DNA from: Diphasiastrum complanatum
Taxonomy: Eukaryota; Streptophyta; Lycopodiopsida; Lycopodiales; Lycopodiaceae
Length of the DNA stretch: 64,000 nucleotides
NCBI GenBank assembly: GCA_029204225.1
Contig: CM055109.1
Location: 44,145,054-44,209,053 of the forward strand
Direction of reading: 5' to 3'
The notes beneath the pieces were generated by a model. That model was given only the letters and a program-made list of their open reading frames with translations, ran no database searches and had not been told where the DNA came from. Both the position numbers and the translations under genes were made by a program. Below, piece by piece: positions 29,192 through 40,983 of the stretch (the stretch's first letter is position 1; every line of letters begins with the position of its first letter).

Positions 29192-29195
29192 AACT

Positions 29196-29290
29196 TCTCA
29201 AATATTGCAGTCCAAAAATTGCCAATAAAACAAGCGGACCCAGTGTCAAACAGAACCTGAACATCTCTACCACACTCGCATAATAATAAG
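29196..29290 (-). pseudogene. Gypsy protease fused to integrase remnant
   Basis: The frame includes VLFDTGSA, the active-site loop of a gypsy aspartic protease, followed at once by CFIGNFWTAIFEKL, which matches the integrase core just before its ETDGQTERVNQ block. All of RT and RNase H, most of the protease and the first half of integrase are absent. The join is probably an internal deletion. Sequence homology switches to copia at 29192-29195. Confidence 0.65.
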
Positions 29291-30547
29291 AGAAGTGTTA
29301 GGAAATTGATACCCTTGGCGAGCCGATTTTGACAAAAGCGCTGGTGGAGCCATGTCCACTCTCCTGACCACCGAAACATTCATGAGGTGTGCAACATCTG
29401 GATTGGCTTCCTGCTCGATCTCTTCCACTATCATAGGATCATCACCCTGGTCCATCTGGTCCACCTGAAGATTATATGTGGTCCGCATCAAGTTCCGTGG
29501 ACATTCCTTCCACCTATGTTGTCCCAAACATCCAAAATAGAGGTTCTCCCTCTTTGCATGTTCTTGGTCCTGAGGTGACAACATTGAAGGATGCTGACCC
29601 TTTTGGACATTGGGCTGCCCATACAACCCTTTGCCTTTTGGGGCCCCTGCACCCTTCTTCTTTTGGTCACCTCGAGCTTTCCACTGATTGGTTTGACCTT
29701 CAAACTTTCTCTTTTGTTCCATTTGCCCTTGCGTCCCCAAGATTGTTGACCACCTATACCAGCTACCGCAACAGGATCCAGGCCTTTTTTCCCATCTTCA
29801 TAATACAAAGCCATCTGGATGGCTCCCCGCAAATCATGAGATTGCTCCTTCCACACGAAAGGGCGAATACTCTCTCGAAGTTCCTCCACAAAGTGAAATA
29901 TTTGCATGTACATAGGAATGCGTAACAAAGCCTCTCGGTACTTGTCTACATAATCCTGCACTCTCAAGTTACCCTGCTTCAAATTAAGACCATTGTTGCA
30001 AGGCTCTGTTGTCTTCATCCATAGGCACCTAGTTTTGTGCAAACATTTGTCGGAATGCCTCTCATGTGGTTGGAACTAGGTCATCCTTTTCCACCTTCCT
30101 CCACCACCTTTGTGCTAACTCTTCAAAACAATATGTGGCTTCAGCAATCATTTCAATTTCATTGTCTATGCCACACATCTGGAATGTTTTCTCCCAATTT
30201 TGCCACCAATTCTCAACGACATCACTAGTTCTCATAGATATTGTTGTAGTGAACTTCGAAGGTTTTAAATCTTTGATAGTAGGTAGCTTTCTCTTTCGAA
30301 ATCCCAACTCAGCTTCATGGGTCGTTGACAATGTCCTTTCTGTTTCCATAGCTGTACCACTGACTCTCTCAGGAACACTAGCCCCTTTGCCTTTGAGTTG
30401 CTCCAAAATCAACTTAAGAGTAGCCTCGATAGCATCCACCTTGGAACATACAGCATCTAATCTCTGTGAATCTTGACTAGTGTTGCTTGCGGATGCCATA
30501 GCAGAAAAATAGGTAGCAGAAACAAAGCAAAACCAAGCTCTCAACAC
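29267..30547 (-). pseudogene. gag: Gypsy gag, copy B
   Basis: The minus-strand frame 30547-30062 encodes a capsid-like N-terminus with a coiled-coil start (VDAIEATLKLILEQL) and the Gag core VVENWWQNWEKTFQMC and ELAQRWWRK. A frame break follows, and 30042-29488 plus 29740-29267 carry NLRVQDYVDKYREALLRI, HFVEELRESIRPFV and the knuckle. In this copy the first zinc ligand is lost: the knuckle reads YFGCLGQHRWKEC instead of CFGCLGQHRWKEC. Gag forms the virus-like particle and packages RNA. Two frameshifts disable it. It is a tandem duplicate of gag copy A. Confidence 0.82.
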
Positions 30548-30972
30548 CTCAAATCACTATACAGATAGGTGACCCTGAATTCAACAAACTAGGGTTTCAA
30601 ACTGACAATTGGCAAAAAAACTATGGATGATCACCGAATCAGAAGTAGAAAAGCCCTGCTCTATCAGCGACCTACCACAAGAAGCTATTTGCAACTGACA
30701 TATCTGAAAAATACTGAGTATTGAAGAAGTTGCAAACAGATTTACAAATCCTATGTGGGCTGAATTTTCACAAAACCAAAGAGAATAATCAAGCGACGCA
30801 ATAGAAAATGCTCAAAGGCTGCCAGAAGATTAGCAATCCACCATAGGGCTTCAATCTGCTATCTTATGGGCTCCAAATCTGCCAACAGATCACCTGCAGT
30901 AGGGCGTTGGCTCTCCAAGAATGCTCCAAACCCTCACTGAAGATGCCAAATCCCACACAAGTCTTGAAAGTA

Positions 30973-30987
30973 ACTACTCTGATACCA
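30973..30987 (-). promoter_or_regulatory. Internal primer-binding site (Met-tRNA)
   Basis: On the minus strand TGGTATCAGAGTAG starts two bases inside the truncated LTR end at 30990. It resembles the complement of the 3' end of initiator Met-tRNA. It is the duplicate of the site at 33137-33150. Confidence 0.7.
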
Positions 30988-30989
30988 AA

Positions 30990-38152: not shown

Positions 38153-38712
38153 AAGAAAGCACTTAGTTCCTCTTGACAAAGCAAGACTGATGCTCTTTAA
38201 AGCCTTTATTCATAATCCAATGAGGTAAAGTACAGCTGAAAAGTAAAATACAGTACTAGAAAGCACCAGTTGTTATTCATGTCCAAAAGAAGTTATACTA
38301 CTTAACAACTTTGAATAGCATTTTAAAACATAGTCTAGTCTTCCCAAACACACGTATCAGTTCATTTTAATCAAAGAGGATTATTAAAGGTTTACACCGT
38401 TAAGAGTTTTATTTAGCCAAAAGACTTGGTGTGAACACGTGTGTTGGTATCAGAGCAAATCATATGCTATACTGACCCAAGTGATCCTTACGACGTAAGG
38501 TATGTCACGCACTATTGTTCATACTCCTGAGCATATCCATGCTTTCCAGATGTATCTCACCAAAAGTCTAAAGTAACACTAATAGAGGAAAGGTGAAGTG
38601 TTACCCTGAATGTTATATCAGAATGATATAATATCCATGGTATAAGGACACTGTATAGGAAAGATGTGATTAAAATAGAGTAAAAGACTACCAATGTTTA
38701 TATTGGGTAGTA

Positions 38713-38890
38713 GGGACAGCAACAGTACATAATCATTTCCTTCAAGTTTGATCAAGTTCTATTAGTGTTTGCATCTCAAATTGTGTGTAGATGCTGATTT
38801 TTCTACATTGGTGAAATTGGTAGTGTATTTCTCTTCCTAACCAAAGATCATTCAAGTAGATTGGATCTTAAGCATCTGAAATCTTTCACA
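38713..38890 (+). repeat. Copia 5' LTR fragment (family A, copy 2)
   Basis: Homologous to the last 170 or so bases of the LTRs at 6883-7560 and 25899-26545, ending ATCTTTCACA. It begins abruptly at about 38713, so the left part of the LTR is deleted. It is followed directly by a primer-binding site. Confidence 0.88.
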
Positions 38891-38902
38891 TGGTATCAGA
38901 GC
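38891..38902 (+). promoter_or_regulatory. Copia primer-binding site (Met-tRNA)
   Basis: TGGTATCAGAGC directly follows the LTR end at 38890, the usual initiator Met-tRNA priming site. Confidence 0.88.
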
Positions 38903-39489
38903 TTGTGTTTCAGGTTATGAAGGAGGAAATCAGATCTATCAATGATTTGGTGAAGATATCAAGTCTAGAGCATGCCAGAGAGGATTCTACACCAAAATCG
39001 GATTTTTTGCTTTTGTAGATTGGATCTTTTGTAGATCAAAACACTAAATAGGTCAATATACTTGTTCAATTCCGTTTTTTGAATTCACATGCTGGATTTG
39101 GCCGATTTTTGGATCATTGGTTCAGCCTAAGTGGTGGCTTATAGATTGCATATCAAATTTTCAGCATTTGCATGTAGATTTGGAATAGTCAATTTTTTGT
39201 GATTTTGTCAAAACCCTAATTTTGATTGGATCTCTAGATAGTGAGGTTGCTAGACTTCATTTGAGTGTGTTTCAATCTTAGGAAGTGGAAAAAGTCATTA
39301 GATTGAGGATAGATCATAGGTTGATCAAGTTTCATGATTCTATGTGTTGATTTGCTTGGATAAGTGCTAGAAGAGAATTTGTGAGATAGTTTCAAATCTT
39401 GGTGATTTCTTTTGAAAGCATTTGTTGTTGTTCAAAGGAGTGCTTTGTGCATTGAAACAGGTTGAAAGAGAAGATCAGGTCATTGCTAC

Positions 39490-40979
39490 ATGGCAACCTC
39501 AATTGGAGTCATGTTGGAAGCCAATGATAGGCTTACCTCAAGTAACTATTCATTATGGAAAGTGAGGATGGAGTCACTTCTTGAGATGAATGATGTTTTG
39601 GATATTGTTGTAGGTTTGGAGGAGAGACCAGCAACACAACGGGATCAATTGAGGTATGACAAGAGGGCCAAGAAGGCTTTACACATGATGAAGATGAATG
39701 TTACCAATGAACTTCTCAAGGAAGTTGGTAAGTGCACATCATCTTTGGAAGCTTGGAATTCATTGAAGAAGCTTTATGAATCCAAGTCTACTTCTAGAGT
39801 GTTGACTCTATGAAGGCAAATCTTTTTTTGTTTGCAAAAGAATGAAGAAAGTCCAAGTACTTTTATTTTGAGAATGAAAGCATTGAATGATGAGTTATCT
39901 TGCATAGATGAAAGCATTAAGGAAGGAGAGCTTATTCAAGTGATTCTTAATGGCTTGTTGGATGCTCATGCTAACATTGTTCAAAGTATTGCTATTTAAA
40001 AGACTTTGCCAAGTTTGATGGATCTTCAAGAGATCTTGATCAATGAGGAATATAGGCTTCAAGCAAGAGGTGGATCTACATCGACACTTCAAGAGGATGC
40101 TATGTTCACAAAGGGCAAATTCAAGGGCAAAACCAAAAGCAAGTGGTCTAAAGGGCAAGATCAAGTGGATGCTTCTTCAAGTGGCAAAAAGAAGGATAGA
40201 TCAAAGCTCAAGTGCTTCTATTGTGGCATCAAAGGACACTTTGCAAGTGAGTGCTACAAGAAAAAGAGAGATCAAGGAGACAAGCAAGGTAATCTTACTC
40301 TTGATGAGGATGGTTTGGATGTGCAAGATGCAAATGATGATGCTTTTGTGATGTCTTCATGTATGCTTGCTAATGATGGAGATCTAGATCCTTGGTGGAT
40401 TGATAGTGGAGCAAGTTCACACATGACCTTTCACAAAGAGTACTTCACTTCTTTGTTGGCATATGGAGATGACAAGAGGGTGATCTACACGGCCAATGAT
40501 GGTGAGTGTGCAATCAAAGGGATTGGCACAATTCCTATTTCTCTCTCTACAAATAGGAATGTTCATTTGGAGGATGTCTTGTTTATTCCATCTATTACGA
40601 AGAATTTGCTTAGTGTGAGTCAAATGCTAAGTAAGGGCCTCAAGGTGGAGTTTGATGGAGATAGTTGTTTGATCAAAAGGAAGGATGTCTTGATTGGAAA
40701 AGGTAAAAGGCAAGGGAAGTTGTTCAAACTTGATGCTTGTGTTATTGCTAACCAAGTTGGATGTGTTGCAAGGGAGCAAATTTCTATTCAAGAGGTTTGG
40801 CACAAAAGGATGGGACACCTCAACTTCAAGTCATTGGAGGTAATGGCAAGGAAGAAGGTTGTGATTGGTCTTCCAAGTTCCTTAAGTAATGACAAGCATG
40901 TTTGTGAGTCTTGTGCTTTGTCTAAGTCACATAGGCTATCTTATACTAGATCTATTTCTAGATCTACAAAGCCTTTTCC
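39490..40979 (+). pseudogene. Copia gag-protease-pre-integrase (copy 2, 5' half)
   Basis: Frame 39490-39813 gives the Gag N-terminus (SSNYSLWKVRMESLL). After a stop, similar Gag sequence reads on to 39997 and a long frame runs 40006-40995. This holds the knuckle CFYCGIKGHFASEC (CX2CX4HX4C), the protease loop WWIDSGASSHMT, SLSTNRNVHLEDVLFIP and ITKNLLSVSQM, then the HHCC-type pre-integrase WHKRMGHLNF with CESCALSKSHR. Homology ends at 40979, just before the integrase core. The missing continuation is on the minus strand at 29191. Leader length from primer site to ATG is about 590 bases. Two stops at 39811-39813 and 39997-39999 interrupt Gag. Confidence 0.88.
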
Positions 40980-40983
40980 AGTT

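Follow-up and report, generated by a model that had tools for sequence, protein, structure and literature searches.

Evidence for an inversion of about 11.79 kb with breakpoints in a Ty1/copia and a Ty3/gypsy retrotransposon of Diphasiastrum complanatum

The window analyzed here, i.e., the whole stretch of 64,000 nucleotides at C18:44145054-44209053 (contig CM055109.1) of Diphasiastrum complanatum, belongs to an assembly of 1,744,706,496 bases in 5176 contigs and contains two retrotransposons with long terminal repeats (LTRs), one of the Ty1/copia and one of the Ty3/gypsy type, each of which is split into two parts on opposite strands. A segment of about 11.79 kb has very probably been inverted, with one break in the copia integrase gene and the other in the gypsy integrase gene. 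Because one inversion accounts for both joins, for the reciprocal halves of the elements and for a target-site duplication, we infer a single event. An initial annotation of this DNA had placed one inversion behind both chimeric junctions, and this proposal is supported by the reciprocal halves, by the target-site duplication and by a second contig, the unplaced C2267 of 52.6 kb, that carries both joins.

On the minus strand, the open reading frame (ORF) 27368-29197 opens with the copia integrase core (positions 13-102 of the 102 positions of Pfam rve; the match to the Ty1 integrase starts from residue 86), and the sequence immediately to the right of 29186 on the same strand is a gypsy integrase piece, namely the one that precedes the half found at 40979. 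On the plus strand, ORF 40000-40995 stops shortly past a complete GAG-pre-integrase domain, and the sequence from about 40980 onwards corresponds to the later part of a gypsy integrase (Ty3 polyprotein 1257-1449, E 8.5e-28; SH3_Tf2-1). In agreement with what had been read from the sequence earlier, the passage from gypsy to copia integrase near 29.19 kb is thus borne out by Pfam, the Ty1 match and the translation, and that from copia pre-integrase to gypsy integrase near 40.98 kb by Pfam and the Ty3 match. The positions first given for the junctions, 29192-29195 and 40980-40983, were right as to the approximate place but not exact: according to other genomic copies, they lie at 29185/29186 and 40978/40979. 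At the left breakpoint gypsy extends through 29185 and copia starts from 29186 with an overlap of 2 bp (29185-29186), the right breakpoint (40978^40979) has zero overlap, and about 6 bp in total were lost over both joins. The left overlap could become 4 bp if the gypsy copy had T instead of C at one position, as is the case in 3 of 9 compared rows, or 3 bp if the copia copy had G, as in L016.

Compared with other genomic copies, the two gypsy halves are 0 bp and the two copia halves four bases apart, so that the claim that each half supplies what the other one misses holds for both elements. At the breakpoint, gypsy is unbroken in all nine rows compared (L014, L015, L017, L018, L023, L030, L031, L032, and L033), about six of which are independent (L023 overlaps L017, L017 and L018 are duplicated, and L014 and L015 seem to be near copies). 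A separate set of 20 fetched gypsy places yielded nine that could be evaluated, all of them contiguous, while the other 11 had no anchor and were counted neither way. Searches for the joins themselves were scored for the best 40 of 756 candidates on the left and the best 40 of 1290 on the right; of the 40 rows for the right join, 37 are confined to the gypsy side, 35 of them with a start exactly at 40979. Copia was sampled with a 46-base stretch from the start of the left half, which has 3392 matches in the genome; the 97 places fetched are all one-mismatch matches on contigs C1 and C2 and were not chosen by upstream sequence. Copia is unbroken at the break site in 96 of them, and exactly four bases lie between the equivalents of 40978 and 29186 in 89 (L107 and L108, which lost a 12-bp repeat unit upstream, were scored by eye). 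The sole broken place, L061, has a deletion of about 20 bp ending at the copia break point. All of the best 40 of 4263 candidates from another copia search were contiguous as well, in a list that includes the query's own place and favours contiguity.

The flanks at 33830-33834 and 42461-42465 form a 5-bp pair that turns direct once the segment is flipped, and the same pair occurs in C2267; their interpretation as a target-site duplication, already put forward in the initial annotation, is confirmed on both contigs. The gypsy element accordingly has gag, a Ty3-like integrase, an LTR pair and a 5-bp target-site duplication, whereas the assignment to Ty1/copia is based on GAG-pre-integrase, integrase and an LTR pair. 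The gypsy LTRs differ in 40 of 672 bases and the copia LTRs in 4 of 180, the latter being a small count with a wide error. All features are compiled in Table 1.

Table 1. Parts of the two split retrotransposons, the inverted segment and associated features (window coordinates)
Feature	Position	Strand	Basis or remark
Inverted segment, ~11.79 kb	29186..40978		Breakpoints deduced from other copies in the genome; C2267 has both joins too
Copia 3' part: integrase core, SH3-like domain, replaced reverse transcriptase (RT) region, RNaseH-like region, 3' LTR	25899..29186	-	Pfam rve, SH3_retrovirus; Ty1 integrase match
Copia 3' LTR, ~647 bp	25899..26545	-	Matches L021 5' LTR and fragment 38711-38890
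Copia 5' part: truncated 5' LTR, leader, gag with two stops, zinc knuckle, protease-like and GAG-pre-integrase domains	38711..40978	+	Pol_BBD, gag_pre-integrs, zf-CCHC; sequence
Truncated copia 5' LTR, 180 bp	38711..38890	+	LTR comparison
Gypsy 5' part: 5' LTR, gag (twice), presumed protease start, 49 bp of integrase	29185..33829	-	Retrotrans_gag, LTR pair with 41795-42460, translation
Gypsy 5' LTR	33153..33829	-	LTR comparison
Gypsy 3' part: second integrase part and 3' LTR	40979..42460	+	SH3_Tf2-1, Ty3 polyprotein match; contiguous with left half in genomic copies
Gypsy 3' LTR	41795..42460	+	LTR pair
Gypsy target-site duplication, copy 1	33830..33834	-	5 bp beside 5' LTR
Gypsy target-site duplication, copy 2	42461..42465	+	5 bp beside 3' LTR
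Gypsy internal deletion junction (protease/integrase)	29233..29234	-	~2.46 kb missing compared with L017, L018
Spacer between the elements, inverted with them	33835..38710		Remnant of another element at right end

Among the rows scored, the left join is spanned in two of 40 (C18 and C2267) and the right join in three of 40, the third besides the window and C2267 being an inverted partial copy that lies on C18 immediately left of the window. Apart from the window and C2267, the one partial copy was the only further occurrence among the best 40 rows each. This copy, in L054 (C18:44137000-44145053), is an inverted, 99.1% identical copy of window positions 40930-42087 including the right join; it adjoins a copia-type element whose LTR family also makes up window positions 1-513, and represents either a real duplication or an assembly irregularity.

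Evidence against an assembly error comes from C2267. It aligns to window positions 14922-56172 at 99.1-99.9% and crosses both joins. Across the inverted part it differs from C18 in 31 of 6836 and 22 of 6316 aligned bases, it is devoid of the window stretches 28315-28966, 42043-42081 and 42771-43745, and it has two element insertions of its own. Since a sample of the spacer (33835-34235, 401 bp) is present at full length only on C18 and C2267, as established by scoring all six of six candidates, C2267 behaves like the other allele. An artefact in which contigs or reads were misjoined could be thought of in view of the repetitive sequence and of the irregular-looking assembly left of the window with its inverted partial copy of the right join. 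It is very unlikely, as C2267 combines both joins with its own substitutions and element insertions and the window contains no N; furthermore, an overlap of 0-2 bp is too short to drive overlap assembly. The initially mentioned alternative of an assembly join in short homology is likewise contradicted by C2267. The two insertions on C2267 lie opposite window positions 28314-28967 and 42042-42082, are about 6.4 kb long each and stem from the copia-type element found beside the partial copy of the right join; at the first of them (opposite 28314-28967) 652 bp of the window's copia are gone and no target-site duplication was seen.

Two independent copia-gypsy chimeras formed by template switching during reverse transcription are hardly credible, even though other rearranged family copies (L025, L019) and the LTR-gag duplication exist, because two switches matching to 0 bp in gypsy and 4 bp in copia plus a chance 5-bp target-site match would be needed and because no other scored row (best 40 of 756, best 40 of 1290) has either join, the partial copy beside the window excepted.

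Several observations weigh against the inversion or leave it without additional backing. The un-inverted order was not found, the spacer sample occurring at full length only on two contigs that are both inverted. Owing to the truncation of the copia 5' LTR at 38711, a target-site test is not available for copia, and a part of the right join exists a second time in the sequence adjoining the window on its left. In a tree of gypsy LTRs, which is star-like, the two LTRs of the element do not pair, and the tree neither supports nor opposes a single insertion.

The proposition that turning the segment over makes both elements continuous is correct at the breakpoints only and does not extend to whole elements, as both were already damaged in ways that the initial annotation had not noted: from their present sequence, flipping the segment back would yield two damaged elements. 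Most of the copia 5' LTR is gone (180 bp vs. about 647 bp for the 3' LTR), and about 1.06 kb of non-copia sequence (27131-28194, minus strand), which has no Pfam match and stays open in the integrase frame over much of its length, replaces the RT region present in L021. The copia RNaseH label was read from the translation, Pfam giving no such match, and the protease label in the gypsy 5' part goes by the active-site motif. In gypsy, a deletion takes out the RT and RNaseH region, and the LTR-gag region is duplicated in tandem (29353-33613, minus strand), the gag copies differing in 88 of 1227 bases, which is close to the divergence of the LTR pair.

The edge of the gypsy deletion is located only 48 bp from the left breakpoint, and among the best 40 of 756 candidates C18 and C2267 alone run across its junction (29233/29234). 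Both features would fit one complex repair event in which the inversion and the 2.46-kb gypsy deletion arose together, a variant compatible with the inversion as described. A joint origin is not favoured, because in genomic copies the 49-bp integrase piece continues into the other gypsy half without a base gained or lost, as expected for a pre-existing deletion; no filler was seen either, and we consider this variant unlikely. Also unlikely is an extension of it, in which the inversion arose in a clustered repair event together with the gypsy deletion, and perhaps with the inverted partial right join nearby, so that the whole would be a small complex rearrangement.

A simple inversion by the following course accounts best for the data. 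Copia on the minus strand and gypsy on the plus strand resided about 5 kb apart. One break then occurred in each integrase gene, and the approximately 11.79 kb between the breaks were rejoined in reversed orientation, probably by end joining; one join overlaps by about 2 bp and the other by 0 bp, with about 6 bp lost. The signature of end joining, an overlap of zero to few bp together with small losses, is present and suggests this pathway. Recombination between long inverted repeats was considered as well and is unsupported: self-comparison of the window for repeats of at least 80 bp revealed none that covers 29185 or 40979. The motif AGTT, formerly regarded as microhomology at both breakpoints, is present near both but does not constitute shared sequence, as both belong to gypsy: on the left AGTT precedes the join by several bases, and on the right it follows the join immediately; overlap is restricted to about 2 bp on the left and none on the right. 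As both elements needed to be in place and both contigs share the inversion, it can be dated between the copia insertion and the haplotype split, which puts it after the arrival of both elements and before the two haplotypes diverged.

A further lead concerned the copia breakpoint. Among the seven independent copia loci that come nearest to the left half of the window, three (the window itself, L021/L022 and L025) have their breaks at one and the same point to within a few bases. As a general property of copia, a breakpoint hotspot is unsupported, with one of the 97 sampled places breaking there, and the impression gained from the seven loci arises mainly from the search itself, in which copies of this kind were favoured by the bases that the query contains past the break. 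The breaks in L061, L021, and L025 stand as individual facts.

Other rearranged copies and neighbouring elements deserve mention. L019 (C4:16138100-16148000) and L025 (C19:47416500-47426400) are copia elements with an internal segment inverted in place, equivalent to window positions 39099-39493 and 39288-40674, respectively, and a second copia 3' end within the window (6301-7560, plus strand) is 91% identical to 25899-27130. For gypsy, L017/L023 (C18 near 44.21 Mb) and L018/L028 (C18 near 45.14 Mb) are the two copies of an inverted 9.7-kb duplication, 99.4% identical and separated by about 1 Mb. At 38440-38711, directly in front of the truncated copia 5' LTR, there is a motif, read by eye, that presumably represents the primer-binding site of another LTR element and marks a further junction. 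Beside gypsy lies another copia-type element (42513-46417; LTR pair 42513-43394/45536-46417 at 90.5%, RVT_2 domain). The transposable elements present (Ty1/copia, Ty3/gypsy, Transposase_21, DDE_Tnp_4) look plant-like as a set; no relative turned up in searches of viral contigs, and Rfam gave nothing at gathering score.

Both elements display the usual domains, LTRs and, for gypsy, the target-site duplication of their types and differ from ordinary Ty1/copia and Ty3/gypsy elements in that they are internally damaged as well as split. According to the rice inversion index, 888 of 1769 inversions have transposable element similarity at both of their breakpoints, breakpoints are enriched in copia and gypsy elements, and in 59 of 100 inspected inversions a clear inverted repeat was not found (PMC10030860). 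The combination of copia and gypsy at the breakpoints is thus shared with the rice inversions described there, whereas base-level resolution was achieved here in a single genome from reciprocal halves and a target-site duplication, without an un-inverted allele. Work on wheat (PMC7156093) and maize (PMC2686159) deals in part with end joining at short homology or none, and the rearrangements treated in these parts resemble the present one in having little or no shared sequence and small losses. For the most part they are deletions, indels or chimeric genes, and some contain filler DNA; no filler is seen at the inversion in the window.

Taken as a whole, the inversion is real, well resolved and of an ordinary known kind. 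It provides a base-exact case in which a small inversion links two different superfamilies of retrotransposons and can be dated to the interval after element insertion and before the haplotypes diverged, and illustrates that annotated copia-gypsy "chimeras" can be scars of inversions rather than new elements.

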